Origin: Wenzhouxiangella sp. XN79A
GTDB lineage: Bacteria > Pseudomonadota > Gammaproteobacteria > Xanthomonadales > Wenzhouxiangellaceae
Assembly (NCBI RefSeq): GCF_012272825.1
Contig: NZ_JAAWWS010000125.1
Coordinates: 1-64,000, forward strand
DNA length: 64,000 bases
Direction: 5' to 3'
A program made the position numbers and the translations under genes. Shown one piece after another: positions 12,953 through 31,533 of this stretch (positions are counted from its first letter, which is position 1; each line of letters begins with the position of its first letter). The notes below the pieces were generated by a model. The model was not told where the DNA came from, did not search any database, and saw only the letters and a program-made list of their open reading frames with translations.

Positions 12953-13003
12953 TCCGGGCTCGCCCCCGACCCGCCCGGTCCGTATACTGGGTCGGGATCC
13001 AGG

Positions 13004-14764
13004 GTGCGAGGGATGCTGTTGCCGCTGCCGCAGAACATGAGCCTGCCCGGGCTGGGCCTGCTGCTTGCCTTCACCGCGCCGGTCGCTGCGATGGACGCCG
13101 ATCGTTTCGCCGAGCGGCTCGACCGGGCCGCCCGGCTGAACGTATCCGCGCCGTGGCCGGAGTCCCAGCGGATACTCGACGAGCTGCGCGTGCACCTGGA
13201 TCTGGCAAGCCACGATCAGCGCGTGACCTATCTGATGCTCGAGAGCCGCAACCAGGCGATGGATGGTCAGCTCGAGGCCTCGTTGGACACGGTCGAAACC
13301 CTGCTCCAGCTCGAACTCGAACCCCACCAGCGGCTGATCGCGCATGCGCGCGCGGCCAACGTCGGCTATATCGCGAGACGATTCGAAACGACCTTTCGTC
13401 ACCTCAACGCAGGAATGGCGCTACTGGCGGACGACTCGCTGGAACGTCATGCGGTCAACCTGTACAGCGTGGCCGCGTACATCTACGCGCTGGCCGAGGA
13501 ACCGGAGGATGCGGTGATCTTCGGTCGCAAGGCGTTGGCGATCGCGCAGCGTTTCGGCCTCGCGCGCGAACAGTGCGCGGCTCGCCAGCGGCTGGGCTTC
13601 GTCTTCAAGCGACAGCGCGACAGCACCGCCGCTGCCGAACAGTACCGGGCGGCGATCGACGAATGTGCGGCAACCGGTGACGAACTGCTGATCGGCACCC
13701 TGGACTATGCCTACGGTGACCTGCTGCGCTCGATCGGCCGCCACCGAGAGGCCGAACCCCGCCTCGAGCGGGCGATCGAGAAGATGCAGGTCCATGGCTA
13801 CCGCGAAGGACTGTCGCTGGCCCGACTGTATCGGGCCCGGCTGGCGCTGGCTCGTGACGAAGCCGACCTGGCCGAACGGATGTTTCGAGACGCACTGGTC
13901 GACCTGACGGCCGCCGGCAATGACGAATACGTCGCCGAAGCGCACCGCGGACTCGCAGAGCTTGCGCTGGACCAGGAACGATTCGGCGACGCGGTCGATC
14001 ATCTGCGTTCGTCCATGAACGCTCGCGAGGCGTATCTCCAGGAAGTGCGCGATCGTCGCACCGCGTTTTTGCAGGTGGAGTTTTCGGTGGCCGAGAAGGA
14101 ACGCGAACTGGCCCGGCTTCGAGAACAGCAGCGGATCGCCGAGCTGGAGCGGCAGAGCCTCGCCCAGCAGTCGCTGATCCGGATCGGTCTGGTCGTCGGC
14201 ACTCTCTTGCTGCTGTTGCTGCTGCTGATTCTCTGGGTCCGCGCGGTTCGCGACCGCCGCCGGTTCCGGCGCCTGGCGCACCGCGATGCCCTGACCGCGC
14301 TCAGCAACCACACCCGTTTCTTCGAATTGGCCGAGACGACCCGCCAACTGGCCATGGCCAAGAAGCGCAACTACACCTTCGTGCTCGGCGACATCGACCA
14401 TTTCAAGCAGGTCAATGACCGATACGGGCACTTGACCGGCGACGCCGTCCTGCGCAAGGTCGGTGCCGCGCTGCGCGAGCAGTTCGGCGACAAGGGCATC
14501 ATCGGCCGGGTCGGTGGCGAAGAATTCGGCCTGGCCCTGCCCGGCCCCGACCTGGCCACCTTGCTTACCGGGCTCGAGGCGGTGCGCGCCCGGTTGCGGA
14601 CGATCCGGGTCGGCGAGCAGCCGATTCCGATCACCATGAGTTTCGGCGTGGCCCGTCCGCGCGACGGCGAGTCGTTGACCGCGCTGCGCGAACGGGCCGA
14701 TCGGCGCTTGTATGCGGCCAAACAGGCCGGACGCGACCGGGTCGTCGCCGAGGGCGAAGGCTGA
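13004..14764 (+). CDS. TPR-repeat sensor with GGDEF diguanylate cyclase domain
   Basis: 586 aa from GTG 13004; ATG 13013 is equally plausible. After a signal peptide come extracytoplasmic TPR-like helical repeats (~30-340), a Glu/Arg-rich coiled coil (~345-385), one membrane segment (LVVGTLLLLLLLLILWV) and a cytoplasmic GGDEF domain (~420-580). The active site is GGEEF near residue 503, with LGDIDHFKQVNDRYGHLTGD preceding it, so synthesis of c-di-GMP from GTP is expected. I see no RxxD inhibitory site at the usual spacing, so product inhibition may be absent. TATACT at 12983-12988 is a possible -10 box. The signal sensed is unknown. Confidence 0.92.
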   Translation: MRGMLLPLPQNMSLPGLGLLLAFTAPVAAMDADRFAERLDRAARLNVSAPWPESQRILDELRVHLDLASHDQRVTYLMLESRNQAMDGQLEASLDTVETLLQLELEPHQRLIAHARAANVGYIARRFETTFRHLNAGMALLADDSLERHAVNLYSVAAYIYALAEEPEDAVIFGRKALAIAQRFGLAREQCAARQRLGFVFKRQRDSTAAAEQYRAAIDECAATGDELLIGTLDYAYGDLLRSIGRHREAEPRLERAIEKMQVHGYREGLSLARLYRARLALARDEADLAERMFRDALVDLTAAGNDEYVAEAHRGLAELALDQERFGDAVDHLRSSMNAREAYLQEVRDRRTAFLQVEFSVAEKERELARLREQQRIAELERQSLAQQSLIRIGLVVGTLLLLLLLLILWVRAVRDRRRFRRLAHRDALTALSNHTRFFELAETTRQLAMAKKRNYTFVLGDIDHFKQVNDRYGHLTGDAVLRKVGAALREQFGDKGIIGRVGGEEFGLALPGPDLATLLTGLEAVRARLRTIRVGEQPIPITMSFGVARPRDGESLTALRERADRRLYAAKQAGRDRVVAEGEG

Positions 14765-14867
14765 CCGGACTCGCCCCGGGCGTCGAGCCAGCCTGCGAGG
14801 CGGCCGCCTCGGGCCGACCGCCGGCCGGCACCGGCGGGATCGCGTCGGCGGGATCGCCTCGACGGGA

Positions 14868-16976
14868 TCAGTCTTCGGGGTCACTCCTATCGGCCAGCTG
14901 CCCGTGCAGGTACGCGTAGATCAGTGCGCTGAGATAGGCCTGCTGCTTCAGATTGGCCGCGCCGCCGTGGCCGCCTTCGATGTTCTCGTAGTACAGCAGA
15001 TCGTGGCCCTGGTCGAGCATTTTCGCGACCATCTTGCGGGCATGCCCCGGATGGACCCGGTCGTCGCGGGTGGAGGTGGTGAAGAACGCGCGCGGGTAGT
15101 CGACGTCGGCGGAGACGTTCTGGTACGGCGAGTACGCGGCCAGGTAGGCCCACTGGTCGGGGTCGTCCGGATCGCCGTATTCGGCCATCCAGCTGGCGCC
15201 GGCCAGCAGGCGGTGGTACCGCTTCATGTCCAGCAGCGGGACCTGGCAGACCACCGCGTCGAACAGGTCCGGGCGCTGGACCATCACCGCGCCGACCAGC
15301 AGGCCGCCGTTGCTGCCGCCCTGGATGCCGAGGTGGTCCGGCGAAGTGATGCCGCGTTCGATCAGGTCCTCGGCCACGGCAATCAGGTCGTCGAAGGCGC
15401 GCTGGCGGTTTTCCTTCAGCGCGGCCTGGTGCCACTTGGGCCCGAACTCGCCGCCGCCGCGGATGTTGGCCAGCACGTAGACCCCGCCGCGCTCCAGCCA
15501 GGCCGAACCGGTTACGCCGGAGTAGAACGGCGTGCGTGAAACTTCGAAGCCGCCGTAGGCCGCCAGCAGCGTCGGATTCTGCCCGTCGGCCTCGAAGCCG
15601 GCCGGCGTGACGACGAAGTACGGAATGCGCTCGCCGTCGGCCGAGGTGGCCTCGTGCTGCGCGACCTCCATGCCGGCCTTCTCGAACCAGGCCGGTTCGC
15701 TGCGCACGTCGGTGTGGGTGTCGCGGGCGGCATCGGCTTCGAACAGCGTCGACGGGGTCAGAAAGCCGGTGTAGTTGTAGTAGAAGCGATCGGACCGGTC
15801 GTCCGTCGACACCACGGCGATGCTGCCGAGCTCCGGCACGTCCAGCGGCTCGCTGACCCAGCGGCCGTCGTCATGGGTGAAGCGGTGCAGGGTCGAGACC
15901 ACGTTGTCGAGCACATTGACCAGCACGGTGTTCTCGGTGGTGGCGACCGATGAGATCGACGCGCGTTCGCCGGGCTGGACGACCACGGCCAGTTCCGGGC
16001 TGTCGGTCTCGAAGCTGTCGATCGGCCCGGCGACCAGCGCCCCCTGGGAGTAGGTCGTGCCGGCCACCTCCCAGTCGGACTTCAGTTCGATCAGGACCTG
16101 GCCATCCAGCATTCCGGCGAGTTCGGCGTCGTCGGGCACGTTCAGGCGGTGCGGTTTGCCGTCGCGGTACAGGTAGTAGTGGCGTGAAAAGAAGCCGGGC
16201 GCGCGCACGATCATGTCGTAGTGATCATCGCCGTCCCAGAAACGCAGGCCCTGCGCCGCGACGTCGCCGCGTTCGCCTTCGAACACGATCGGGGCCTCCG
16301 AGGGATCGCTGCCGCGTTCCCAGATCCGCACCGTACGCGGGTAGCCGGAGTCGGTGACCTGATCCTCGCCGAAGGCCGGGCCGTAGAACACCGAGTCGCG
16401 GTCGCGCCAGCTGATGGCGCTCTTCGATTCCTCGAGCCTGAACCCGTCCTCGACGAATTCGCGCGTTGCCATGTCCCATTCGCGCGTGACCGTGGCATCG
16501 GCGCCGCCGATCGACAGGCGGACCAGGCAGCGGTCGTAGTCCGGATAGCGGCAGCTCGCGCCGGCCCAGACCCAGTTCTCGCCTTCTTCCTCCGCAAGCG
16601 CGTCGAGGTCGAGCAATACCTCCCACTCGGGTTCCTCGTTGCGATAGTCCTCGACCGTCGTCCGGCGCCAGATGCCGCGGACGTGCCCGGCGTCGCGCCA
16701 GAAGTTGTAGATCATCCCGCCCTGCAGCGACGGATACGCGATCCGGTCGTCGGAGGTCAGGATTTCCAGCGCGCGGTCGTGGATCGGCGCGAACAGCGGG
16801 TGGGCCTCGAGCTCGGACAGTGACACCTCGTTCTGCCCGCGTGCCCAGGCCAGCGCGTTCGGGCCCTCGACCTCCTCGAGCCAGAGATAGGGATCGTCGC
16901 CGGGTTGTGTCTGTGCCATTGTGATCGAGCCGGCGCCGAGGCCGGCGGCCAGTAGGAGGAAGCAGAAGTGTTTCAT
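14868..16976 (-). CDS. Secreted prolyl oligopeptidase family serine peptidase (S9)
   Basis: 702 aa starting MKHFCFLLLAAGLGAG, a signal peptide; an ATG four codons upstream is an alternative, and no strong ribosome site decides. Residues ~30-430 are the beta-propeller gate that excludes large proteins. The catalytic alpha/beta-hydrolase has Ser in GIQGGSNGGLLVG (~555), Asp in TSTRDDRVHPGH (~640) and His in IEGGHGG (~669). WLEEVEG near the mature N-terminus is typical of S9A enzymes. It would cleave short Pro-containing peptides in the periplasm. Monocistronic, convergent with the GGDEF gene. Confidence 0.93.
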   Translation of the reverse strand: MKHFCFLLLAAGLGAGSITMAQTQPGDDPYLWLEEVEGPNALAWARGQNEVSLSELEAHPLFAPIHDRALEILTSDDRIAYPSLQGGMIYNFWRDAGHVRGIWRRTTVEDYRNEEPEWEVLLDLDALAEEEGENWVWAGASCRYPDYDRCLVRLSIGGADATVTREWDMATREFVEDGFRLEESKSAISWRDRDSVFYGPAFGEDQVTDSGYPRTVRIWERGSDPSEAPIVFEGERGDVAAQGLRFWDGDDHYDMIVRAPGFFSRHYYLYRDGKPHRLNVPDDAELAGMLDGQVLIELKSDWEVAGTTYSQGALVAGPIDSFETDSPELAVVVQPGERASISSVATTENTVLVNVLDNVVSTLHRFTHDDGRWVSEPLDVPELGSIAVVSTDDRSDRFYYNYTGFLTPSTLFEADAARDTHTDVRSEPAWFEKAGMEVAQHEATSADGERIPYFVVTPAGFEADGQNPTLLAAYGGFEVSRTPFYSGVTGSAWLERGGVYVLANIRGGGEFGPKWHQAALKENRQRAFDDLIAVAEDLIERGITSPDHLGIQGGSNGGLLVGAVMVQRPDLFDAVVCQVPLLDMKRYHRLLAGASWMAEYGDPDDPDQWAYLAAYSPYQNVSADVDYPRAFFTTSTRDDRVHPGHARKMVAKMLDQGHDLLYYENIEGGHGGAANLKQQAYLSALIYAYLHGQLADRSDPED

Positions 16977-17278
16977 GAACGGGTCCATTCGGGGTCGTCG
17001 GCCGACCATTCTGGCCGGTCCGGGTCGGCGCGGCGTGTGCCATTGGTTGGTGTGGAACCCTCGTCCGGGACCGTGAAACGGGATTCGACGCGGAAATCGC
17101 CCGGCGGCGCGACCGCGTGGAACCACCGGCACGCCGCCGTGGAACGGAAACCGGCATGCCGCGACCTCCGAGCGCGGCTTGAACTTCGGTAAGGCCACCA
17201 GAAGGTCTTCCGGCAAGGCCCGGGCACACAGGCCCGCTTGCCGCAGACCACACTCACACCGAACCGGGAGATCCGCTC
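16977..17278. other. Intergenic region between divergent S9 peptidase and OB-fold genes
   Basis: About 300 bp with no supported gene. It must hold promoters for both flanking genes. I see no clear -35/-10 pair. Confidence 0.4.
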
Positions 17279-18037
17279 ATGAGACTCCAGAAACGACTTC
17301 TTGCAACTGCCATCGCCGCTGCAGTCGCGCTGCCCCTTGCCGCGCCTGCCGACGACCACGAACATCGCCGACACGAAAACCATCATCCGGAAATGAACAA
17401 GCACTCCGCGATGAACACCACGAACCCGTCGCGTGACTCCGGAACGCAGGCACAGCGCTACGGTGAACAGCAGACATCGCCGTACGGTGCGCCGGACAAC
17501 AGCTGGATTTCCATCAGCGGTACGGTGGTGGACGTCGCCCGCGATCAATTCGAGCTCGACTACGGCGACGGTGTCGTGACGGTCGAGATGGACGACGGCG
17601 ACCGGGACGCGGATGCCTATTCGCTGTTGACCGGTGACAAGGTCCGCGTCATGGGCCGGGTCGACGACGATCTGTTCGAAACCACGACGATCGATGCAAT
17701 GAGCGTGCAGGTCGACAAGCTGGGCACGACGTTCTATGCCGATCCGAACGATCAGGAAGCGCTGAGCGTTGCGGTTACCGTGCCGATCACCGTTTCCGAG
17801 ACGGTCGTCAACGGCCGCGTCATCTCGGTCGACCAGGACGACTTCATGATCGATACCGGAATGGCCCACCTGACCGTCGATGTCTCCGATCTGGCGTCGA
17901 ATCCGCTTGACGACCGCGGCTTCCTGCGGATCGATGTGGGCGATCGGGTCAGCGTGACCGGCGACATGACCCGGGAATTCTTCGAAGGCCGCCAGCTCGA
18001 CGCCGATGTCATCGTCGAGTTGAGCAATCGACGGTAG
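17279..18037 (+). CDS. Periplasmic protein with two OB-fold-like (BOF-type) domains
   Basis: 252 aa. A signal peptide (LLATAIAAAVALPLAAPADD) is followed by a His-rich linker (HEHRRHENHHPEMNKH) that could bind metal. Two related domains follow: ~75-150 beginning WISISGTVVDVARDQFELDY and ~170-250 beginning ETVVNGRVISVDQDDFMIDT. Each has the alternating beta pattern and a GDxVxVxGxxD strand (GDKVRVMGRVDDD, GDRVSVTGDMTRE) like YgiW/YdeI-type OB folds. Function is unknown; such proteins are often stress-related. Monocistronic with its own terminator. Confidence 0.75.
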   Translation: MRLQKRLLATAIAAAVALPLAAPADDHEHRRHENHHPEMNKHSAMNTTNPSRDSGTQAQRYGEQQTSPYGAPDNSWISISGTVVDVARDQFELDYGDGVVTVEMDDGDRDADAYSLLTGDKVRVMGRVDDDLFETTTIDAMSVQVDKLGTTFYADPNDQEALSVAVTVPITVSETVVNGRVISVDQDDFMIDTGMAHLTVDVSDLASNPLDDRGFLRIDVGDRVSVTGDMTREFFEGRQLDADVIVELSNRR

Positions 18038-18081
18038 TCAGCCCCCGGGCGCCTTCCGCCGCGATCATCGTTCGCAACATC

Positions 18082-18110
18082 GACCCCGGCTCCTGCGGTC
18101 GGGGTCTTTT
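18082..18110 (+). terminator. Intrinsic terminator after the OB-fold gene
   Basis: A 7-bp stem gaccccg (18082-18088) / cggggtc (18100-18106) followed by TTTT. It sits between convergent genes, ~45 bases after the plus-strand stop; the minus-strand face lacks a U-run. Confidence 0.75.
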
Positions 18111-18142
18111 CCTTGCGCAGCCGGCGCAGGCCCGCGCAGGGT

Positions 18143-19114
18143 TCAGGCCGGTCGGCGTGCAGTCAGGACCGCGCGGAGCGGCGGCGGATGCCCTTCGATC
18201 GTGGCGCTTCGATCCGGGGTCAGCGCGTTGGCCAGGGAATGGAAGGGCATCCAGTCGGTCGGGCGCTGTTCTGCCGTGGTGGTCCGCGTCCGGTCGCAGA
18301 CCGCGACGCCGGCGTATCCGGCCTCGACCAGCCAGTCACCCAGTCGGGGAACGGTCGGCAGTCGATGAACGTTGCGCATGTTGGCGTAGCGCCCGGGGGG
18401 ATCGAGTTGCTCGTTTCCGTCGCCGGGCAGGACCAGCGTTTCGAGCACCAGCGTGCCCCCGGGCGCCAGGTGCCGGGCGATCCGGGCCAGGTGCTCCAGC
18501 GGGTCGCGACGGTGATACAGCACGCCCATCGAGAACACCACGTCGAACGCACCGATCGCCGGCAGGGCCTCGAAACGCAGCGGCAGGAAGTCCAGCGCCG
18601 CCGGGCCGGCCAGTCGTGCGATCGCGCGGTGCTGCATCCAGAACACCAGCGTCGGGTCGCAGACGGTGACACTGGCCGCGCCGGCGTCGAGCATCCGCCA
18701 GGCGAAGTAGCCGTTGCCGCCGCCGATGTCCAGCACGTGCCGGCCGCCCAGGTCCACCTGCGGTGCGACCCGGTCCCATTTCCAGTCCGAGCGCCACTCG
18801 GTATCGATCGATACGCCGGCCAGCCGCAGCGGGCCCTTGCGCCATGGAATCAGGCCCTTCAGCGCAGTGGCGGCCTCGGTCAGCGTGTCGGCCGGTTCGC
18901 CGGCGACCAGCACGCCGTGGTCGATCCGCCAGCCGGCCGGTGCGTCCGGCACTGCGTCCAGCGCGGCCTGCCAGTCGGGCAGCCGGCCGTGCCGATCCGG
19001 ATGCGTGGCCGCGGCCACGGCCGTGTCGAGATCGGCTGCGCGGACGGCGCCGAAGCGATCGATTCGAACCGCGTCGTTCATGGACCGGATCGGCGCAGGC
19101 GGATTCTGGGGCAT
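18143..19114 (-). CDS. cmoB: tRNA U34 carboxymethyltransferase
   Basis: 323 aa, matching the family. CmoB transfers a carboxymethyl group from carboxy-SAM to 5-hydroxyuridine at the wobble position, giving cmo5U34. The SAM-type fold is seen as VLDIGGGNGYFAWRMLDAGA, then DVVFSMGVLYHRRDPLEHL and PGGTLVLETLVLPGD, all characteristic of CmoB; WRSDWKWDR before the fold also fits. An internal ATG at 19081 is an alternative start. Its partner cmoA is adjacent but divergent, across ~50 bp. Confidence 0.95.
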   Translation of the reverse strand: MPQNPPAPIRSMNDAVRIDRFGAVRAADLDTAVAAATHPDRHGRLPDWQAALDAVPDAPAGWRIDHGVLVAGEPADTLTEAATALKGLIPWRKGPLRLAGVSIDTEWRSDWKWDRVAPQVDLGGRHVLDIGGGNGYFAWRMLDAGAASVTVCDPTLVFWMQHRAIARLAGPAALDFLPLRFEALPAIGAFDVVFSMGVLYHRRDPLEHLARIARHLAPGGTLVLETLVLPGDGNEQLDPPGRYANMRNVHRLPTVPRLGDWLVEAGYAGVAVCDRTRTTTAEQRPTDWMPFHSLANALTPDRSATIEGHPPPLRAVLTARRPA

Positions 19115-19135
19115 ACAATCACTGCAGGTTCCTGT

Positions 19136-19154
19136 CGCCGGGTCCGACCCGGCG
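19136..19154. promoter_or_regulatory. Inverted repeat between cmoB and cmoA
   Basis: Perfect 8-bp arms cgccgggt/acccggcg with a 3-base centre, in the middle of the 50-bp divergent intergenic region. It could be an operator for both genes or a leader hairpin in the cmoA transcript. Confidence 0.5.
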
Positions 19155-22777: not shown

Positions 22778-23674
22778 TCAGCAGGACTCCAGCAATTCCC
22801 GCACCGCCGGCGCGATGCGCTCGGCCAGGTCGATCCGGGCCTCGGGCGCATCGACGGTGTCGCTGCAGACCACGGTCTCGATCCCGGCCTCGGCCAGCGT
22901 CTCCCGGGCGCGATCGCCGAACAGGCCGTGGACGACGGCGCAGGCCGGCATCGGCAGACCGGCCTCGACCAGCACGCGCGCGGCGTCGGCCAGCGTGGCG
23001 CCGGACGACAGGATGTCGTCGACCAGCACCGGCCGGCGGTCGTCGAGGCCGGCGAGCGACGGCGCGGTGATGCGCACGTCGTGGTCGCCGAAGCGCTGCT
23101 TGGTCATCACCCGCCACGGCAGGCCGCGCGCTTCGGCCACGGCCCGCACCCACTGTTCGCTTTCTTCGTCCGGGCCGACCACCAGCGGTTGTTCGATCGA
23201 CGCGGCGATCCATGCGGCCAGCGCCGGTGCCGCGGCGACCACCCGGCCGGGAATCGAATAGACCGCATCGAGGGTCGGATAGCGGTGCAGGTGCGGATCG
23301 ACGGTGACCAATCCGTCGAAGGCCGCCGAAATCCGCTCGGCGAAGCTGACCGAGGTCAGCGCTTCGCCGGGGTGGAAGCGGTGGTCCTGGCGCATGTACG
23401 GCAGGTACGGCGCGACCAGCAGCACGGATCGTGCGCCAAGATCGCGGACCAGGTCGGCGGCGAACAGCAGGCGCGGAATCTTCGGGTCCGGCCGGTCCAG
23501 CGTGGCCACCAGCACCACGTCCCGGTCGGTCAGCTCGGCGTCGATGCGAAGGTAGCTTTCGCCGTCGGGGAAACGGCGGTAGTGCAGCGCGATCCGGTCG
23601 CCGTTCACGGCGGCGGCCAGTCGGTCGGCGCGCGCGTCGTTGCCCGGCAGCGCGATCAAGACGGGGCGGGTCAT
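22778..23674 (-). CDS. Ribose-phosphate pyrophosphokinase-like protein (short class)
   Basis: 298 aa. It has the PRPP synthetase outline: FPDGESYLRI, then LLVAPYLPYMRQDHRFHPGE (Arg/Gln-Asp of the ATP site), VTVDPHLHRYPTL (HLH motif) and the PRPP loop VLVDDILSSGATLADAA. It differs from housekeeping Prs, which is ~315 aa with an allosteric C-terminus, and looks closer to the archaeal/plant-like non-allosteric class. It ends a six-gene operon and overlaps the phosphorylase gene by 4 bases. I infer it makes PRPP, or phosphorylates a related ribose phosphate, from products of its neighbour. Confidence 0.85.
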   Translation of the reverse strand: MTRPVLIALPGNDARADRLAAAVNGDRIALHYRRFPDGESYLRIDAELTDRDVVLVATLDRPDPKIPRLLFAADLVRDLGARSVLLVAPYLPYMRQDHRFHPGEALTSVSFAERISAAFDGLVTVDPHLHRYPTLDAVYSIPGRVVAAAPALAAWIAASIEQPLVVGPDEESEQWVRAVAEARGLPWRVMTKQRFGDHDVRITAPSLAGLDDRRPVLVDDILSSGATLADAARVLVEAGLPMPACAVVHGLFGDRARETLAEAGIETVVCSDTVDAPEARIDLAERIAPAVRELLESC

Positions 23675-25197
23675 CGGTCGGCCTCGGTCTGGATGATGTC
23701 GCCGTTGTTGCCGGCGAACTCGCGGGCATAGCCCAGCTCCCCGGCAGTTTCGGCGTGGATGGTGTAGAGGGGGTCGCCGGCCCGGACCTCATCGCCGAGA
23801 TGCACGTGCAGCTCCAGGCCGGCGGCCGGCGCGCCCGGCGCGCCGGCCAGCTTGGCCACCCGCGACAGCCGCCGGTTGTCGAAATGCGTCACGCAGCCGG
23901 AGTGCGCGGCGGTGACGACCTCGGTGCGGCTGGCCTTCGGCGGTTCGCGCAGGCCGCCCTGGGCCTCGCAGATGGCCTGGAATTTCTGCCACGCCGCGCC
24001 CGATTCCAGCGTCCTGGCGGCCTGCCGTACGCCGTCGCCCGGCTCGGCCTTGCCGCCGAACTCCAGCAGCACGCCGGCCAGGCTCAGCGCCCGGTCGGCC
24101 AGGTCGCGGGGGGCGTCCGGATCGCCCTGGAACACGGCCAGCAGGTCGCGCGCTTCCAGTGCCGGACCGATGCCGCGGCCGACCGGCTGGCGGCCGTCGG
24201 AGATCACGATCTCGGCGGTCAGGTCGAAGCGCGCCGCGGTGCTGCGCAGGCGCTCCCCGAGCCGTTCGGCGTCTTCGCGACTGCGCAGCTTGGCGGTGGC
24301 GCCGACCGGCAGGTCCAGCACCAGGTGGGTCGAGCCGGCGGCGACCTTCTTCGACAGTACCGAGGCGACCAGCTGGGCTTCGGCATCCAGGTCCATGACC
24401 CGCGCGACCCGGATCAGCAGGTCGTCGACCGGACTCAGGCCGACCGAGCCGCCCCAGACCACGCAGCCGCCTTCCCGCTCGACCACGCGCTGCATGTGGC
24501 CGAGCGTCAGGCTGACCGGCGCCAGGGTTTCCATGGTGTCGGCGGTGCCGGCCGGCGAGGTGATCGCGCGCGACGAGGTCTTCGGAATGACCAGGCCGTT
24601 GGCCGCGACGATGGCCACGATCAACGGCGTGGTGCGGTTGCCCGGCAGGCCGCCGACGCAGTGCTTGTCCAGCCGCATCGGGACATCCCAGTCCAGCCGT
24701 TCGCCGACCCCGACCATCGCATCGGTCAGGCCGAACAGTTCGTCGTCGTCGAGCGCGCGCGCGGCGATCGCGGTCAGCAGCATGGCCAGCTGGATGTCGT
24801 CGTAGCGGCCGTGGACGACATCGCGCATGATCGCGCCGAACTCGCAGGCCCGCAGCGCGCGGCCGTAGACCTTGCCGCGCACGCTGGAAATCGACTCCAG
24901 CGGCTTCGGGTGGCTGACGTGGATCTGCTGTCCGTCGCGCACCTGCAGCGCCCTCCAGGCCGCGGTCGACAGGCCGATCTCGTCCGGCGCGAGCAACTCC
25001 GAGCCGGTCTGGAACAGGGTCGCGATGACGGTGTCGTGCAGGCTCTCGAGACGCACCCGCGCATGCGCATCGAAGCCCTCGGAGCGACACACCGGCGAGT
25101 CCTTGCGCAGCAGCGCGATCGGCTTGTCCAGCGTATCGAGATCCAGGCAGCGAACCCGGAGGTTGTTGCTGCGCTGGTGCAGTTCCGGTGTACTCAT
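23671..25197 (-). CDS. Thymidine/AMP phosphorylase family protein
   Basis: 508 aa, longer than E. coli DeoA (~440) because of an N-terminal ~90-residue domain, the layout of archaeal AMP phosphorylases and of proteobacterial putative thymidine phosphorylase type 2. The phosphate/nucleoside site reads RLDKHCVGGLPGNRTTPLIV, followed by PKTSSRAITSPAGTADTMET. VGGxPGNRTT is the AMP-phosphorylase-like version rather than the simple pyrimidine-enzyme loop. It would release a base and ribose 1-phosphate or 1,5-bisphosphate. Translation is coupled on both sides: the ATG overlaps the metallo-hydrolase stop and its stop overlaps the PRPP synthetase ATG. Confidence 0.88.
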   Translation of the reverse strand: MSTPELHQRSNNLRVRCLDLDTLDKPIALLRKDSPVCRSEGFDAHARVRLESLHDTVIATLFQTGSELLAPDEIGLSTAAWRALQVRDGQQIHVSHPKPLESISSVRGKVYGRALRACEFGAIMRDVVHGRYDDIQLAMLLTAIAARALDDDELFGLTDAMVGVGERLDWDVPMRLDKHCVGGLPGNRTTPLIVAIVAANGLVIPKTSSRAITSPAGTADTMETLAPVSLTLGHMQRVVEREGGCVVWGGSVGLSPVDDLLIRVARVMDLDAEAQLVASVLSKKVAAGSTHLVLDLPVGATAKLRSREDAERLGERLRSTAARFDLTAEIVISDGRQPVGRGIGPALEARDLLAVFQGDPDAPRDLADRALSLAGVLLEFGGKAEPGDGVRQAARTLESGAAWQKFQAICEAQGGLREPPKASRTEVVTAAHSGCVTHFDNRRLSRVAKLAGAPGAPAAGLELHVHLGDEVRAGDPLYTIHAETAGELGYAREFAGNNGDIIQTEADR

Positions 25198-26570
25198 CGG
25201 GGCGTCAGATCGACCGTTTGGCCGTGTTCGGGCACCGCGGCCGACCAGCCCAGCCGCTCCTCGATGGCCAGCCGGAACGCATCGGCGGCCTCGGCCTCGC
25301 CATGCACCACCCAGACCTGGCCCGGCGGCCGCGGTGCCTGCTCCAGCCAGGACAGCAACTCGTTGCGGTCGGCGTGGGCCGACAGCATGTCGAGGTTGTG
25401 GACCTCGGCCTTGACGTCCCAGTACCGGCCGTGGATCTTGACCGACTCGGCGCCGGCGATCATCTTCGCCCCGCGCGTGCCGCCGGCCTGGTAGCCGGCG
25501 AACAGGATGGTGTTCTGCGGCTGCGGTGCGTAGACCTTCAGGTGGTGCAGCACCCGCCCGCCGGTCGCCATACCGGAGCCGGCGATGATGATCTTCGGCA
25601 TCGGATCGGCGTCCAGCGCCTTCGATTCCTCGACCTCGCGCACGTAGCGCGGCAGACCGCAGACCGCTCGAGCCTGTTCCGGCGACAGCCGGTGGTCGTC
25701 GGGGTGATCGAGGAACACCTCGGTGGCGTTGATCGCCAGCGGGCTGTCCAGGAACACCGGCACGTTCGGAATCCGGCCTTCGCCCATCAGCTTGTGGAGG
25801 TAGTACAGCAGCAGCTGGGTCCGTCCCACCGCGAAGGCCGGCACGATCACCGAGCCACCGCGCCCGACCGTGTCGCTGACGATCCTGGCCAGGCGGTCCT
25901 CGGCCGAGCCGTTGGTGCGGTCGCGGTCGCCGTAGGTCGACTCGATCATCAAGACGTCGCATTCCGGGGGCGGCTCGGGCGGCGGGATGGTCGGGTTGGT
26001 CCCGTGGCCGAGGTCGCCGCTGAACAGGACGCGAAGCCCGCCGACCTCGAACAGCACGCTGGCCGCCCCGAGGATGTGCCCGGCTCGGCTGAATCGGGCG
26101 GTCAGGCCCGGCGCCGCTTCGAAGACCCGGCCGAACGGCTGGTCGCGGAACCGGTACAGGCAGTGCTCGGCATCGGCCCGGGTGTACAGCGGTCGGGCCG
26201 GGCGGTGCTTGGAGAAGCCGTGCCGGTTGGCGAACGCGGCGTCCTTTTCGTGGAGGAAGCCGGAATCCGGCAACAGGTGCTGGCACAGCGCGCGGGTCGA
26301 GGCGGTGGCGAACACATCGCCTTCGAACCCGTCGCGCACCAGCACCGGCAGGTAGCCGGAATGATCGATGTGCGCGTGGGTCAGGACCGTCGCGTCGATC
26401 GTCCCGGGCGCGATCGGCAGCGCCTTCCAGTTGCGGTCGCGCAGCTGCTTGTAGCCCTGGAACAGCCCGCAGTCGACCAGCACCCGGTGGCCGGCGTGCT
26501 CGAGCAGGAACTTCGAGCCGGTGACCGTGCCGGCCGCGCCGAGGAAGCGAAGCGTCGGCCCGGCACTCAC
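25194..26570 (-). CDS. Beta-CASP metallo-beta-lactamase RNase-like protein
   Basis: 458 aa from a GTG overlapping the previous stop (GTGA). The metallo-hydrolase core has LTHAHIDHSGYLP (HxHxDH), FSRAGHILGAASVLFE and FSGDLGHG. The beta-CASP module has VPAFAVGRTQ, IIIAGSGMATGGRVLHHLK and LSAHADRNELLSWL. This architecture (YsnM/RNase J/CPSF73-like) usually cleaves RNA as exo- or endonuclease. Its invariant pairing here with the phosphorylase and PRPP synthetase suggests it supplies nucleotides from RNA, which is inference. Confidence 0.92.
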   Translation of the reverse strand: MSAGPTLRFLGAAGTVTGSKFLLEHAGHRVLVDCGLFQGYKQLRDRNWKALPIAPGTIDATVLTHAHIDHSGYLPVLVRDGFEGDVFATASTRALCQHLLPDSGFLHEKDAAFANRHGFSKHRPARPLYTRADAEHCLYRFRDQPFGRVFEAAPGLTARFSRAGHILGAASVLFEVGGLRVLFSGDLGHGTNPTIPPPEPPPECDVLMIESTYGDRDRTNGSAEDRLARIVSDTVGRGGSVIVPAFAVGRTQLLLYYLHKLMGEGRIPNVPVFLDSPLAINATEVFLDHPDDHRLSPEQARAVCGLPRYVREVEESKALDADPMPKIIIAGSGMATGGRVLHHLKVYAPQPQNTILFAGYQAGGTRGAKMIAGAESVKIHGRYWDVKAEVHNLDMLSAHADRNELLSWLEQAPRPPGQVWVVHGEAEAADAFRLAIEERLGWSAAVPEHGQTVDLTPR

Positions 26571-27952
26571 CGGCCGGCGGCCTCGAAGCCGTCGCCGAAC
26601 ACCCCGCGGAACAACGCCACGAGCTCCGGCTCGGTGACCCTGAGCACGAACAGGCCGCGATTGATGTCCGAGACCAGCAGGGTGCCGTTGTCGAAGAACG
26701 GATAGACGTTCCAGGCCCCCTGGAAATTGTTGCCGTCGCCTTCCGGGTAGGTGTCGAAATACGCGACTTCGGTCAGCGTGGCGCTGGCCGGGTCGTCGAT
26801 CCGCAGGATGCGCAGGCCGCGGCGGTAGTTCGACTGGAAGGTGTAGTTGCCGATCACGTACTGGTTGTGGTCGATGGCCGGGCCGTCGGCGATGTAGCTG
26901 GCCGGCTCGGGCGCCGAATCGAGCTGCGCCAGGTCGAACACCAGCGTCCGGGTGCCGGGCAGGTTGAACTGGAATTCGTCGACCTCGTCATCGGTGACGA
27001 ACCAGCGCTGGCCGGGCATCAGCCAGCCCTGGTGGGTGTAGGCGGTCTGGTTGTACGTGTGACGGCCGATCTGCACCGGCTTGGCCTTGTCGGTCACGTC
27101 GACGACGGTGACCGAGTCCTCGTTGCTGGCAAAGCAGATCTCGCGGCCGGTGTAGCGGGTGTCGGGCCCGGCGTAGACCACGCACTGGACGTCGTGGGTG
27201 TAGCCGTCGGCCGAGAAGCAGCCGGCGAAGCTCGGGTTGCGCGGGTCGCGGATGTCGATCATGTGCAGGCCGCCGCCGCAGGTGTTGCCGCCGGTGGTGT
27301 AGGCGAAGCCGGTGTCGGTGTTGATCGCGATGTTGTGCGCCTCGTGATGGGTGGCGGTGGCGCCGCTGGGAAACTCGAACGTCAGGTAGTGCGCGTCCAT
27401 CGAGAAGGTCTGCGGCGGATTGCTGACCTTGCGCAGGCGGGTCAGGTCGAACACCTGCACGCCGTGGTTGTTGACGTCGTCGGCGACGATGAAGGCGTGG
27501 TCGGCGTAGGTCTTGATGTCGGTCCACACGCTGCTCGTCACACCGGGCGGCCGCGGCAGGTTGCCGAGGTAGATCGGGTTGGCCGGGTCGGTGATGTCGA
27601 CGAAGGCAACACCGTTGGAGCGACCCATCAACGCATAGCGCTGTCCGGTTTCCGTGTCCGTCCAGCCCCAGGAATCCGAGCCCGAGCCGCCGCCGATCTC
27701 GGGCAGCTCCAGCCAGCCGGCCAGCTCGATGCCGTCGCAGGGAAAGATGTCGGACAGTCCGTCGACGCAGCCGGCCGGACCCTTGTAGGGGTACTCGATC
27801 GGCTCCAGGCCGTGCATGCTGTGGGCCAGGTTCTCGAACTCGATGTCCGGATGCAGCACGCCGAGCACCGCGGCCCGGTCGCTGGTGAAACAGGCCCAGG
27901 CCACGGCGGGCGCGAGTGCGGCAAGAAGCAGGAACTGGAGCGGTCGTTTCAT
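26567..27952 (-). CDS. Secreted choice-of-anchor B family protein
   Basis: 461 aa. A signal peptide (LQFLLLAALAPAVAWA) precedes a beta-propeller of LVIVD-like repeats, for example GVAFVDITDPANPIYLGNLP, GVQVFDLTRLRKVSNPPQ and SVTVVDVTDKAKPVQIGRHT, as in TIGR04312-type proteins. Cys residues near the start and middle may pair. The C-terminus is LFRGVFGDGFEAAGR, a tail shared in form with two other secreted proteins of this window (see findings). Family members carry varied C-terminal anchors, fitting a surface or secreted role. Both ends overlap neighbours by 4 bases. Confidence 0.88.
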   Translation of the reverse strand: MKRPLQFLLLAALAPAVAWACFTSDRAAVLGVLHPDIEFENLAHSMHGLEPIEYPYKGPAGCVDGLSDIFPCDGIELAGWLELPEIGGGSGSDSWGWTDTETGQRYALMGRSNGVAFVDITDPANPIYLGNLPRPPGVTSSVWTDIKTYADHAFIVADDVNNHGVQVFDLTRLRKVSNPPQTFSMDAHYLTFEFPSGATATHHEAHNIAINTDTGFAYTTGGNTCGGGLHMIDIRDPRNPSFAGCFSADGYTHDVQCVVYAGPDTRYTGREICFASNEDSVTVVDVTDKAKPVQIGRHTYNQTAYTHQGWLMPGQRWFVTDDEVDEFQFNLPGTRTLVFDLAQLDSAPEPASYIADGPAIDHNQYVIGNYTFQSNYRRGLRILRIDDPASATLTEVAYFDTYPEGDGNNFQGAWNVYPFFDNGTLLVSDINRGLFVLRVTEPELVALFRGVFGDGFEAAGR

Positions 27953-29577
27953 GATTCGAATCCGTCGGCGAACAGCGGCACGGGCACGCGAACCATCCGG
28001 GGCAGGCCTTCCTGGCCCGCCGAGTCGATGGCGGTCACGAACAGCCGCCCGTTGGCGGGCAGTGTAGCGCCGGTCGGCAGGGTCACGTCGAACGGCGTGA
28101 CCGGGGCCGGGGCCGCGATCGGGAAGCTCCAGGTCGGCGCGCCGGTGTCGGCCGGCGCGCCGGCGGCCACGCGCAGCTCGACGATGTCACCGATCGGGTC
28201 GCTGACCGGGGGTTCGGTCACGCCGCCGCGGAAATACAGCGTGTCGTCGGCGGTGCCGGTCAACCGCACGTCGTCGTCGGTCGTTGCGGCGAGCGCGGTG
28301 ATCGAGGGTCCGGCCGGTTCGAGGTACGGCCGGCGAGCGGCCTTGGCGGCCAGCAGCAGCGCGTCGCGGTTGTCGGGCCAGATGGTCGATTCGAAGCTCG
28401 AGCAGGATTGCTGGAAGGTCGTGCCGACCTCGTAGGTATAGGCCGCAACGCCGAACTCGTGGTAGGCGTAATCGACCGTCGTGCCGCCGGCCGGCCCCAG
28501 CAGTTGCCAGCGGCCGACGTCATAGCCGGTCGGTGCTGCCATGCGCCGGCCGAGGATCGCAAGCCCGTCGTGGTTGGGCGCATTGTTCTCGTTGCCGGCG
28601 TCCAGACCTTCCCAGGGAAACAGCACCAGTTCACCGAACGAATGGATCGAAATGAACAGGCCTTCGCTATCGAGCGGCGCCGGCGTGGTCAGGTCGCCCG
28701 GTCGCTGGTCGGCGAACACCGTGGCCAGGTAGTCCTGGATCGCCTGCGTTTCGGGCTCGGAGGCCACCACCGGGCCGCGGTAGGCGTCCGAACAGGCCGA
28801 ACCCGACGAGAAATCACCCCAGAAGATCGTGCTGTTGCGGTTCAGGTCGATGCCCGGATTGGTGCTCGGGCAGGCGGTCTCGTTGTGGTTCTTGCGCCAG
28901 AAGCTTTCACCGGCCTCGACCTGGCGCCGGCCGTCGGGATTCTGCTGCGCGATCACGTGCACCTGCCGGTGGTCCAGCAGCCAGTCGATATCGGGGTCGT
29001 CGGCCGGGTTGGCGACCAGCAGCTCGGCGAAGCGCGTCGCGAGCTCGGCGGTGGCCAGTTCGCGGGCGTGCTGCGCGGCCATGACCACCAGCGGCGCGCG
29101 CGGATGCGGCGAGCTGGGGTTCTCGATGACCAGCGCCCGGATCGTGTCGCCGGCCGCCGAACCGTTGTCGGCCTGCCAGGTGTCGCCGACCTCGACCCAG
29201 CGGGCCCGGTCCGGGTACTGGACGGCCAGCGCTTCGAGGTCGGCGTGGGTCTGGGTAACGGTCCGGTAGCAGGAAAAGCCCGGGATGCTGCCGCCGGCAC
29301 CGCGCCGGAAGCCGGAGCGATCGATCGCGTTCCAGGCCGCGAGCTCGGCGTTGCGTTCGCGGTCGGTCTCGATCCGCAGTCCGGCCGCTTCCAGCCGGAC
29401 CCGGTCCGCGGGCGCCAGCCGGAACACCGCTGCATCGGCCGCGCGGTCGATGCCCCAGAAGTCGTACTCGGCCCGCAGCGCGCCCAGCTGGGCCGGGCTC
29501 AGCTCGTGGATGCGAACGACCTCCGCGCCCAGCGGGGCGCCGAGCAGCAGCAGCGCCAGCGCGGCGGCGCGGATCAC
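27949..29577 (-). CDS. Secreted M14 zinc carboxypeptidase
   Basis: 542 aa from GTG 29577, overlapping the amidotransferase stop (GTGA). A signal peptide (AAALALLLLGAPLGA) and a ~75-residue propeptide-like segment precede the M14 domain (~110-400): zinc ligands in MAAQHARELATAE (His ~170, Glu ~173), substrate Arg region GIDLNRNSTIFWG, zinc His in FISIHSFGELVLFPWE (~310) and catalytic Glu in AYTYEVGTTF (~382). A beta-rich C-terminal domain ends VPLFADGFES. Expected to remove C-terminal residues from extracellular peptides. Confidence 0.92.
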   Translation of the reverse strand: MIRAAALALLLLGAPLGAEVVRIHELSPAQLGALRAEYDFWGIDRAADAAVFRLAPADRVRLEAAGLRIETDRERNAELAAWNAIDRSGFRRGAGGSIPGFSCYRTVTQTHADLEALAVQYPDRARWVEVGDTWQADNGSAAGDTIRALVIENPSSPHPRAPLVVMAAQHARELATAELATRFAELLVANPADDPDIDWLLDHRQVHVIAQQNPDGRRQVEAGESFWRKNHNETACPSTNPGIDLNRNSTIFWGDFSSGSACSDAYRGPVVASEPETQAIQDYLATVFADQRPGDLTTPAPLDSEGLFISIHSFGELVLFPWEGLDAGNENNAPNHDGLAILGRRMAAPTGYDVGRWQLLGPAGGTTVDYAYHEFGVAAYTYEVGTTFQQSCSSFESTIWPDNRDALLLAAKAARRPYLEPAGPSITALAATTDDDVRLTGTADDTLYFRGGVTEPPVSDPIGDIVELRVAAGAPADTGAPTWSFPIAAPAPVTPFDVTLPTGATLPANGRLFVTAIDSAGQEGLPRMVRVPVPLFADGFES

Positions 29578-30347
29578 GCGGCCGCCGGTCGCTGCGCCCG
29601 CTCGACCAGCGCGCCGAACCGGGCCAGCACGGCCGGCCCGACAGTGTCGTCGGCGACCCCGCGAACCAGTGCCACCGGGTCCTGGCCCTCGGCGGTGAGC
29701 GCCTCTGCGCGGGCCTGGAGGTAGGCGCGCATCACCGCGCGGCCGAACTCGGGGTGGAACTGCACGCCCCAGCTGTGCCGACCGAAGTGCAGCGCGTGGT
29801 ACGGGTCGTGGTCGGCCTCGGCAACCACGCGCGCGCCCGGCGGCGGCTCCAGCACGGCCTCGGTGTGGCTGACGTGGAAGAATTCCGTCGGCGCGAACCG
29901 GCCCATCAGCGGGTCGTCGGCCTCGATCGAATGGATCTCGACGCGGCCCATCCGCCGACCCCTGGGGTTCGGTCCGACTGCCCCGCCGAGCGCATGCGCG
30001 AGCAGCTGGTGGCCATAGCAGACGCCGAGCATCGGCAGCCCCGCGCGCTGTGCGCCGGCCAGCCACTCGGCGGTGCGCTCCGACCAGTCGGCGCGGTGGC
30101 TGACCATGGCCGGCGAGCCGGTGATCAGGACGCCGGCCAGGCCCTGCGGCGAGGGCAGCGGTTCGTCCCGGTCGACCCGCACCGTGCGGTAGCTGAAGCG
30201 CTGGCGACCGAGACCGGCGATGAACCAGTCCTCGAAGTCGCCGCCCAGCGCGCGTGCTTCGGGCACGGCCTGCCCGGTCTTGATGATCAAAAACGGCTTT
30301 GGATCGTCGTTCGGGGTGCTGTCGTTCGAAGGGTTGGGGCTTGCCAC
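29574..30347 (-). CDS. Class I glutamine amidotransferase-like protein
   Basis: 257 aa from GTG 30347, about nine bases after GGAGA; the open frame upstream lacks conserved sequence. The triad is seen as Cys in LGVCYGHQLLAHALGG (~108), His in WGVQFHPEFG (~199) and Glu two residues on. It resembles the stand-alone GuaA-like amidotransferases (YfeJ/GMP synthase-like), which release ammonia from glutamine or act on gamma-glutamyl amines. First gene of the coupled operon; the 130-bp gap to the divergent alcohol dehydrogenase should contain the promoter. Confidence 0.88.
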   Translation of the reverse strand: MASPNPSNDSTPNDDPKPFLIIKTGQAVPEARALGGDFEDWFIAGLGRQRFSYRTVRVDRDEPLPSPQGLAGVLITGSPAMVSHRADWSERTAEWLAGAQRAGLPMLGVCYGHQLLAHALGGAVGPNPRGRRMGRVEIHSIEADDPLMGRFAPTEFFHVSHTEAVLEPPPGARVVAEADHDPYHALHFGRHSWGVQFHPEFGRAVMRAYLQARAEALTAEGQDPVALVRGVADDTVGPAVLARFGALVERAQRPAAA

Positions 30348-30477
30348 CGATCGTGGTCTCCATCTCCAGGCTTCAAGCCGCCCATCACAGCACATTTCCG
30401 CGGCGATTGCACCCCTTGTTGTCGGCCGTCGGCGCGCCGTGCGATGATGGAGCCTGTTGCCAATCCCGAGAATGCAC

Positions 30478-31533
30478 ATGTCCACGCTCCAGGCCTATGG
30501 GGCCGAATCCGCAGATTCGGGCGTCCATCCCCTGACGATCGAGCGCCGCGAGCCGAGGCCCGACGACGTCTCTATCGAGATCGATTACTGCGGGGTCTGC
30601 CATTCCGACCTGCACTTCGTGCTCAACGACTGGGGCATGACCGAGTACCCGATCGTGCCGGGGCACGAAATCGTAGGAACCGTGACCGCGGTCGGCGATG
30701 ACGTGGCCGGATTCAAGGTCGGCGAACGGGTCGGCGTGGGCTGCCTGGTGGATTCCTGCCGCGAGTGCGCGTCCTGCGAAGAGGGCCTGGAACAGTACTG
30801 TCTGAACGGCTTTGTCGGCACGTACGGGGGAGAGGACCGGCATGACGGAACGAAGACCCACGGCGGGTACTCCGAGCGCATCGTGGTCTCCGAGCGCTTC
30901 GTCCTGAAGATGCCCGAGTCGCTGGATCCGGCCGCCGCTGCGCCATTGCTGTGTGCCGGCATCACGACGTACTCGCCGCTGAAGCACTTCGGGCTCCAGG
31001 CCGGGGACCGGATCGCGGTGGTCGGGATGGGCGGGCTGGGCCACATGGGCATCAAGTTCGCGAAGGCCATGGGTGCTGAAGTCACGGTGTTCTCGCGTTC
31101 GGAAAACAAGCGCTCGGAAATCGAGCGGCTGGGCGCCCACGACATGATCATCTCGACCGACGAAGAGCAGATGGAAGCCGCGGCAGGCCGCTTCGACTTC
31201 ATCCTCGATACGGTACCCGTGCCGCACGACCTGAACCCCTACGTCAATGCGCTGAAGCCGAGCGGCACGCTGATCCTGGTCGGACTGCTCGAGCCGATCG
31301 AGCCCGCGCTGCAGGCCGGCCCGATCGTGTTCGCACGCCGCAGCATCTCGGGTTCGTTGATCGGCGGCCTGCCGGAAACCCAGGAAATGCTCGACTTCTG
31401 CGCCGAGCACGACATCGTCAGCGATATCGAGATGCTCGATATCAGGAACATCAACGAAGCCTACAAGCGCATGCAGAACAGCGACGTGCGCTATCGTTTC
31501 GTGATCGACATGGAATCGTTGAAGGGCGCCTGA
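30478..31533 (+). CDS. NAD(P)-dependent zinc alcohol dehydrogenase (CAD-like)
   Basis: 351 aa starting MSTLQAYGAESADSG; an ATG two codons earlier is possible. Catalytic zinc ligands are in CGVCHSDLHF, PGHEIVG and the later Cys of LLCAGITTYSP. Structural zinc Cys are in the CRECASCEEGLEQYC segment. The Rossmann motif is VVGMGGLGHMGIKFAKAMGA. This matches the YahK/cinnamyl-alcohol-dehydrogenase subgroup, which reduces a broad range of aldehydes with NADPH. Monocistronic, divergent from the amidotransferase operon. Confidence 0.93.
   Translation: MSTLQAYGAESADSGVHPLTIERREPRPDDVSIEIDYCGVCHSDLHFVLNDWGMTEYPIVPGHEIVGTVTAVGDDVAGFKVGERVGVGCLVDSCRECASCEEGLEQYCLNGFVGTYGGEDRHDGTKTHGGYSERIVVSERFVLKMPESLDPAAAAPLLCAGITTYSPLKHFGLQAGDRIAVVGMGGLGHMGIKFAKAMGAEVTVFSRSENKRSEIERLGAHDMIISTDEEQMEAAAGRFDFILDTVPVPHDLNPYVNALKPSGTLILVGLLEPIEPALQAGPIVFARRSISGSLIGGLPETQEMLDFCAEHDIVSDIEMLDIRNINEAYKRMQNSDVRYRFVIDMESLKGA

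Follow-up and report, generated by a model that had tools for sequence, protein, structure and literature searches.

Introduction

In the archaeal nucleoside 5′-monophosphate (NMP) shunt, an NMP phosphorylase acts together with ribose 1,5-bisphosphate (R15P) isomerase and RuBisCO. The NMP phosphorylase of T. kodakarensis is reported to cleave AMP, CMP and UMP to give R15P, and PhnN of E. coli is an R15P kinase making phosphoribosyl pyrophosphate (PRPP) (PMC9700705). In B. diazoefficiens, the genes bll3117, bll3116 and bll3115, named as a thymidine phosphorylase (TP) family protein, a PRPP synthetase (Prs) and a metallo-beta-lactamase (MBL) protein, are listed among 71 genes whose transcripts and proteins both increase at 0.5% oxygen; their transcripts rise 5.1-, 7.7- and 15.4-fold and their proteins by log2 2.1, 4.4 and 2.9 (PMC6515984). 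A second study predicts that the three form one operon and places a FixK2 box at −74; without FixK2, bll3117 and bll3115 were 6.6- and 30.6-fold lower, and the phosphoketolase gene bll2518 and acetate kinase gene bll2517, a pair with its own box, were 10.0- and 10.2-fold lower (PMC9104804). Here we analyzed a 64,000-nt stretch of Wenzhouxiangella sp. XN79A (contig NZ_JAAWWS010000125.1, positions 1 to 64,000; hereafter the window), which carries a six-gene minus-strand operon whose last three genes encode a beta-CASP metallo-ribonuclease, a type-2 thymidine phosphorylase family protein (TP2) and a short PRPP synthetase paralogue (Prs2). These three genes are a real, widespread and conserved module, which probably serves ribose catabolism. 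We give an even chance to the reading that it scavenges the ribose of RNA, with an RNase yielding NMPs, TP2 converting these to free base and R15P, and Prs2 receiving the R15P.

Results

TP2 travels with Prs2 and often with the beta-CASP RNase

Among 40 related loci picked from genomes of the window's order and class, TP2 was found in 40, a Prs match in 37 and a beta-CASP gene in 22. All six genes recur, in unchanged order, in the nearest relative (L063). A second sample of 80 named loci, which were the top-scoring ones among at least 585 matches and therefore lean to close relatives of the window's TP2, contained 80 TP2 genes, 71 Prs matches (one of them, in L163, a 28% match on the opposite strand), 57 beta-CASP genes, 25 phosphoketolases and 4 amidotransferases. 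Since the neighbourhood search found the trio in Alpha-, Beta- and Gammaproteobacteria, in Bacteroidota and on a chlamydial plasmid, a trio not conserved together elsewhere, the outcome that the original prediction had named as speaking against it, is not what was observed.

The pairing was then counted in 185 genomes of the class, with TP2 taken as present when its match exceeded 360 bits. This gave 43 genomes with TP2, including G105, in which the gene is split over two contigs, and G058, in which it is incomplete; G011 was scored as lacking TP2, since its only match is a fragment of 66 bits, and it has no Prs2 either. Prs2 accompanied TP2 in 40 of the 43 genomes versus 1 of the other 142 (G145, the sole genome with Prs2 but no TP2; P = 8e-36, Fisher's test, which ignores shared descent). 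It exceeded its family cut-off in 39 of the 185 genomes. Of the 40 genomes with both genes, 38 have Prs2 over the cut-off; in the other two the gene is truncated (G099) or split (G045).

In a larger neighbourhood set of 119 TP2 loci (2.15 Mb), the same-strand run with TP2 included Prs2 in 98 loci and the beta-CASP gene in 63. When the start nearest the upstream stop was taken, which favours short distances, and near-copies were included, a 4-base overlap fitted 39/60 beta-CASP–TP2 and 43/87 TP2–Prs2 junctions outside the window. Protein distances over 51 loci were correlated for TP2 and Prs2 (0.62) and for TP2 and the beta-CASP protein (0.61), and only at 0.38 for Prs2 and the beta-CASP protein; none of 500 permutations reached either of the first two values, which shared descent alone would also yield.

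TP2 was also present on 112 plasmid records, 46 of them typed conjugative, and the TP2 match was absent from a genome of the window's own genus (G247), which together indicate that the module is accessory. A closely similar island occurs in L166, L167 and L169-L172 (Pseudomonas rhodesiae, Achromobacter ruhlandii, Pigmentiphaga, Hydrogenophaga and others) and comprises beta-CASP-TP2-Prs2, DUF6629, an ABC1/UbiB-like kinase, an archaeal-type GAPDH and a phosphoketolase. In the Prs tree, which includes one sequence in the wrong reading frame (L189), Prs2 has branch lengths of 0.004 in Achromobacter and 0.007 in Pseudomonas, and near-identity in two genera of the island suggests recent transfer. 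Three genomes (G004, G065 and G195) hold two full TP2 copies each, and those of G195 (L078 and L079) sit in differing gene orders. P-type ATPases were found near TP2 in 40 of the 119 loci (L088, L109-L112, L114, L115, L120, L215 and others), and of three that were scanned, two were of the heavy-metal and one of the cation type. The scan for viral contigs gave one locus, L033.

TP2 resembles an NMP phosphorylase

TP2 is the sole TP-family match in the window's genome (about 3.75 Mb in 171 contigs; presence and absence here refer to this one assembly, estimated to be 99.97% complete). Among solved structures it is best matched by 4ga5/4ga6 (E 3e-102), an entry titled putative thymidine phosphorylase that we take to be the T. 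kodakarensis enzyme. Comparison of 115 TP2 rows with 6 ordinary TPs from the same order found that the block GLGHTGGTxDKLE of the ordinary TPs mostly becomes AITSPAGTADTME. The residues G, L, G, H, T and G before the shared GT, as well as the K and L of DKL, are kept in the 6 ordinary TPs and replaced in 108-115 of the 115 TP2 rows. The TP His is Ser214 and a TP Met is Lys206 in 115/115 rows each, and the Lys of TLDKLE is Thr221 in 109/115. The phosphate loop is one residue longer in TP2, with PGN where ordinary TPs have GD. 4ga5 has the loop PGNK, the identical block IPKTSSRAITSxAGTAD and Val at 221. By this comparison the loop VGGLPGNRTT, pointed out in the original prediction, is of the NMP-phosphorylase type.

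In addition, the N-terminal region of TP2 has a counterpart in none of the 6 ordinary TPs, and the AMP phosphorylase model TIGR03327 aligns with TP2 over profile positions 2-487. TP2 thus carries both the extra N-terminal region and the NMP-type active-site block, and by these features it resembles an NMP phosphorylase and probably works like one.

Prs2 keeps the PRPP synthetase fold with a changed active-site segment

The window's genome also carries a housekeeping Prs, on contig C14. By both fold and sequence, the nearest enzymes to Prs2 are the short Prs of archaea; its predicted model (pLDDT 95.8) aligns with archaeal Prs at Z of about 32, and Foldseek and VIA-align both give a Prs fold, an assignment that does not distinguish the substrate. 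F35/D37/E39, R95-Q96-D97, H128, D169, K192, R194, D219-D220 and T227 are all retained, so that the FxDGE, RQD, His, Asp, Lys/Arg-loop and DD...T elements of a PRPP synthetase are in place. We take these positions to be metal-, ATP- and catalytic-loop residues, with D169 presumably binding metal. The Gly of FxDGE is present in 80 of 93 Prs2 rows.

The difference lies directly after Asp169. When the 93 Prs2 rows were aligned with 10 housekeeping Prs, one of which (L184) is truncated at its start, Prs2 had xESxQW where the housekeeping enzymes have xGGxVR: E171 and W175 occur in 93/93 and S172 and Q174 in 92/93 Prs2 rows, and at these four positions all 10 housekeeping sequences have G, G, V and R. 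The PDxGGxVR segment of the housekeeping enzyme is therefore lacking in Prs2. Likewise, Arg131 is found in 93/93 Prs2 rows at a position occupied by Gln in 10/10 housekeeping Prs; Ser223 (for Asp) and some other differences are shared with the archaeal enzymes. The motif GPDxESxQW was present in 5/5 plasmid-borne Prs2 proteins examined. That a paralogue with such a change should accompany an enzyme resembling an NMP phosphorylase suggests a different substrate for Prs2, and R15P is the natural candidate.

The beta-CASP protein has ribonuclease features

The protein combines the MBL HxHxDH motif with Beta-Casp and RMMBL domains, from which RNA cleavage is predicted. HxHxDH is kept in 71/71 homologues of at least 420 aa, and among these SAHA is found in 64, TYG[DN] in 64 and [VLI]HGE in 46. 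The best-scoring solved relative is RNase TTHA0252, with CPSF-type proteins ranking below it.

Prs2 is the candidate found for R15P use

We searched the window's genome for other ways of disposing of R15P. RuBisCO (PF00016) and DeoB phosphopentomutase were not found in it, no PhnN scored over its cut-off, and the best match to R15P isomerase (TIGR00511) reached only 187.4 bits against a cut-off of 314.1; APRT is present. With the other sinks that were looked for absent, Prs2 is the only candidate found here for R15P use.

Elsewhere in the class, PhnN was over its cut-off in 9 of 185 genomes (5/43 with TP2 and 4/142 without; P = 0.03), and one further TP2 genome (G033) fell just short, at 150.5 of 156 bits. 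Of the three genomes in which TP2 was counted and Prs2 was not, G146 and G058 have PhnN; the TP2 match of G058 ends at residue 446 of 508, as if at a contig end. As a stand-in for Prs2, PhnN adjoins TP2 in 0 of 120 loci searched and is kept as a hint only.

Phosphoketolase and acetate kinase accompany the module in relatives

Among the 119 loci, phosphoketolase was found in 29 (19 within the same-strand run) and acetate kinase in 9 (4 within the run); two runs read TP2-acetate kinase-phosphoketolase-Prs2 and one TP2-acetate kinase-phosphoketolase. The 30 phosphoketolases examined beside TP2 comprise 5 of the canonical family and 25 of a divergent family (six cut by the locus end and one a fragment), which is 20-25% identical to the canonical one (for example L075:6661-9036 and L130:6253-8634). 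One divergent sequence that was scored reached 131 bits, far below the NCBIfam phosphoketolase cut-offs, which start at 777. The occurrence of two phosphoketolase families beside the same partners argues for a functional link, and the fact that the extra genes of the module in relatives are often phosphoketolase and sometimes acetate kinase points to energy being drawn from ribose.

Sequence comparison of five replicons (Criblamydia, Paracoccus pAK2, Acidovorax p1-T1, Sphingobium pSH1 and Pontibacter) found TP2 and Prs2 on 5/5 and the beta-CASP gene on 4/5, the MBL gene being absent from the stretch of pSH1 examined. The phosphoketolase is canonical on the Criblamydia and Sphingobium plasmids and divergent on those of Paracoccus and Acidovorax; Pontibacter has the trio without phosphoketolase in the stretch examined. 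On the Criblamydia plasmid the gene order is phosphoketolase-glgP-ATP cone-MBL-TP2-Prs-acetate kinase, glgP being glucan phosphorylase. Two divergent plasmid phosphoketolases (L215:6215-8599 and L216:20497-22917) are annotated as xylulose 5-phosphate 3-epimerase. Zinc-dependent alcohol dehydrogenases also adjoin TP2 on pSH1.

In the 2.15 Mb of the 119 loci, 54 TTGAYN4RTCAA sites were counted versus 8 expected at uniform composition. Only 9 of the 119 loci have an FNR/FixK box ahead of a core gene (−60 to 350 bases upstream), and the expectation is that of uniform composition; these boxes were not used as evidence for the window.

The operon and its lineage-specific head genes

The six genes are arranged in tandem on the minus strand and span 30347 to 22778 (Table 1). 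As the original prediction had stated, all five junctions are 4-base overlaps, of GTGA at 29574-29577 and 26567-26570 and of ATGA at 27949-27952, 25194-25197 and 23671-23674. A start further upstream is possible for the amidotransferase gene, for example the ATG at 30363.

Table 1. Open reading frames of the operon, in operon order, with the evidence for each product.
Product	Coordinates	Strand	Evidence
Class I glutamine amidotransferase (PRK09065 type), operon head	29574..30347	-	Pfam and NCBIfam profiles (PRK09065, 270.9 bits, cut-off 205)
Zinc carboxypeptidase M14	27949..29577	-	Pfam 130.1 bits, no NCBIfam match; hydrophobic N-terminus; C-terminus LFADGFES
Choice-of-anchor B family protein, LVIVD repeat	26567..27952	-	TIGR04312 (451.9 bits, cut-off 100); hydrophobic N-terminus; C-terminal DGFE motif
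Beta-CASP metallo-ribonuclease with RMMBL domain	25194..26570	-	Beta-Casp and RMMBL profiles; HxHxDH motif
TP2, type-2 thymidine phosphorylase family, NMP-phosphorylase-like	23671..25197	-	PRK04350, thymidine phosphorylase (640.7 bits, cut-off 434); active-site block
Prs2, short PRPP synthetase paralogue (PRK07199 subfamily), PDxESxQW signature	22778..23674	-	NCBIfam PRK07199, ribose-phosphate diphosphokinase (369.3 bits, cut-off 322); alignment

The three head genes have a narrow distribution. The amidotransferase occurs in 11 of the 40 related loci, each of which belongs to a genome of the window's family, and the four named loci with it are all Wenzhouxiangella; the M14 gene (L063 and L064) and the choice-of-anchor B gene (L063 and L070) occur in 2 of the 40 each. 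The latter two are probably local insertions, and all three head genes are lineage-specific additions outside the route explained here. The two middle proteins, judged by their hydrophobic N-termini, are probably secreted; they had been called secreted peptidases, which holds for the M14 protein, the choice-of-anchor B protein being no peptidase. The further idea that they feed the pathway by coupled uptake was abandoned, and both were rejected as pathway members, because each is present in only 2 of the 40 related loci.

A hydrophobic-x-DGFE ending is common to these two proteins and is also found on their L063 counterparts (12112-15653) and on one L064 protein (15839-19153); this family may use it as a sorting tag at the C-terminus. 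A zinc-dependent alcohol dehydrogenase gene (30457-31533, plus strand; Pfam ADH_N and ADH_zinc_N) diverges from the operon head.

Discussion

A route from RNA to ribose phosphates

In the route that we propose, the beta-CASP RNase would degrade RNA to NMPs, directly or with other nucleases, as its family suggests. TP2 would then phosphorolyse the NMPs to free base and R15P, in the manner of the archaeal NMP phosphorylase that its family and active-site residues recall. In the third and least certain step, Prs2 would use the R15P and pass the ribose onward as ribose 5-phosphate and/or PRPP; it is the prime candidate because it is so tightly paired with TP2, because its active-site motif is changed and because the other sinks looked for are lacking. 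In this organism the ribose would most likely return to PRPP or the pentose phosphate pool, and APRT would re-use the adenine. In relatives, phosphoketolase (in many) and acetate kinase (in some) would convert pentose phosphate to acetyl phosphate and ATP, probably at low oxygen.

The original prediction, that RNA is salvaged to PRPP by these three enzymes, has the outline right, as the trio is conserved and the phosphorylase loop is of the NMP-phosphorylase type; its last step, an ordinary Prs making PRPP, has become doubtful, because an ordinary Prs needs ribose 5-phosphate and an NMP phosphorylase gives R15P, because the Prs2 motif is changed, and because relatives often add phosphoketolase and sometimes acetate kinase. 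From considerations of chemistry and context, a Prs active site moving one phosphate rather than two would interconvert R15P plus AMP and ribose 5-phosphate plus ADP. We therefore raise, tentatively and with clearly less than even confidence, a more specific version in which Prs2 is not a PRPP synthetase and would use R15P, either with AMP to give ribose 5-phosphate and ADP or in a related transfer giving ATP or PRPP. Together with TP2 it would constitute an NMP shunt that bacteria run without RuBisCO and in which the energy of the C1 phosphate of RNA ribose is saved. The pentose would, in relatives, continue through phosphoketolase and acetate kinase, so that the cell would ferment its own RNA at low oxygen.

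Several observations weigh against these readings. The activities of the beta-CASP protein, TP2 and Prs2 are predictions from family, residues and context. TP2 misses the cut-off of the AMP phosphorylase equivalog TIGR03327 (461.9 versus 535 bits) and is thus filed only under PRK04350/TIGR02645, which it passes, and Prs2, with the checked catalytic residues kept, may simply make PRPP. The module is also not uniform: no Prs match was found in 9 of the 80 named loci, and TP2 stands without a counted Prs2 in three class genomes, G123 (whose Prs match is interrupted by a contig end), G146 and G058. The beta-CASP gene was not found in 23 of the 80 named and 18 of the 40 other loci, some of whose contigs end early, and its lack in many loci indicates that the RNase is not obligatory. 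Near-copies among the loci (L166-L172, L121/L123 and L119/L120) mean that the counts overstate the number of independent cases.

The link to energy at low oxygen has its own difficulties. Phosphoketolase is only mildly enriched in class genomes with TP2 (19/43 versus 30/142, P = 0.005), and one locus (L149:9830-15041) has a TP2-acetate kinase-canonical phosphoketolase run with no Prs2 match in the locus. In the B. diazoefficiens oxygen study, bll3117-bll3115 lie outside the top 62 significant proteins, are unmarked as FixK2 targets and have no bacteroid rise (PMC6515984), and the likeness to them is one of product names and gene order. In the window's genome no match to phosphoketolase and no acetate kinase was found, so that the gene pair of a phosphoketolase ribose fermentation module is missing there, and the 64-kb window contains no TTGAN6TCAA box. 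The low-oxygen energy reading thus does not extend to this genome, in which ribose should bypass phosphoketolase and the product of Prs2 should be PRPP or ribose 5-phosphate.

Alternative explanations

PRPP or the pentose phosphate pool is still a possible destination in a genome lacking phosphoketolase and acetate kinase. The alternative that follows the original prediction is that Prs2 is an ordinary ribose 5-phosphate pyrophosphokinase through which the operon feeds RNA ribose into PRPP for nucleotide salvage. The retained catalytic residues, the confident Prs fold and an APRT that could use PRPP with freed adenine all agree with it. We nonetheless consider it unlikely, given that a housekeeping Prs is already encoded on C14, that TP2 would supply R15P (or ribose 1-phosphate from nucleosides) instead of ribose 5-phosphate with DeoB not found, and that the conserved PDxESxQW change is left unexplained. 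The same pair of enzymes might instead run in the synthetic direction, Prs2 making PRPP or R15P and TP2 in reverse joining bases to R15P in a PRPP-sparing base salvage. Tight TP2-Prs2 pairing suits either direction, and it is the company of an RNase, a phosphoketolase and an acetate kinase, pointing to breakdown, that makes this rather improbable.

Two further explanations dispense with a linear route from RNA, and to both we assign a slim chance. The beta-CASP protein might be a regulatory or mRNA-decay nuclease, with TP2 and Prs2 tuning nucleotide pools under stress, as might be supposed from the RNase TTHA0252 and CPSF-type proteins among its closest solved relatives and from the islands with universal stress proteins or metal pumps in which some relatives lie; the beta-CASP-TP2-Prs2 order, kept in many loci with junctions fitting overlaps, argues otherwise. 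Slightly slimmer still is the chance that TP2 is, as database product names have it, a thymidine phosphorylase for deoxynucleoside salvage with loosely related neighbours, since the TP residues are replaced, its N-terminal region is foreign to the six TPs compared, its pairing with Prs2 is near one-to-one and DeoB was not found.

Implications and comparison with known systems

Among the matches listed in a search of PMC papers under CC0, CC BY and CC BY-SA licences (titles and starts of abstracts), none described the bacterial trio as a pathway. Within that open-access literature, it seems to be new to recognize the module as an NMP shunt in which the Prs is changed and which, in relatives, has an outlet through phosphoketolase. 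If the reading is true, the database names thymidine phosphorylase, PRPP synthetase and metallo-hydrolase mislead for a widespread and sometimes plasmid-borne set, and bacteria would have a RuBisCO-free R15P outlet of their own that recovers sugar, and in some lineages ATP, from RNA. The PDxESxQW Prs poses a directly testable enzyme question, and the reading gives a rationale for low-oxygen operons such as bll3117-bll3115.

The Bradyrhizobium operon is likened to the window's trio by name and gene order: its three product names match and the genes form one predicted operon (PMC9104804), with the order TP-Prs-MBL there versus MBL-TP-Prs in the window, and with a FixK2 box there versus no FNR/FixK box in the window. 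The plasmid stress modules of Criblamydia, Sphingobium, Paracoccus and Acidovorax share with the window TP2 and a GPDxESxQW Prs (4/4) and the MBL RNase (3/4), and differ in having phosphoketolase (4/4), which the window's genome lacks together with acetate kinase. With E. coli PhnN, Prs2 would have the proposed substrate R15P in common, the protein families being different. Compared with the archaeal short PRPP synthetases (M. jannaschii 1u9y, T. volcanium 3mbi and S. solfataricus 4twb), Prs2 has the same length, fold and catalytic residues, and PDxESxQW where these have PDxG[GA]L. Finally, the first enzyme type is common to the archaeal NMP shunt and the window; the window's genome, having neither RuBisCO nor an R15P isomerase over cut-off, does not belong to that shunt as defined by these two enzymes, and, unlike the archaeal shunt, TP2 loci nearly always combine the phosphorylase with a Prs paralogue and often with a beta-CASP RNase.

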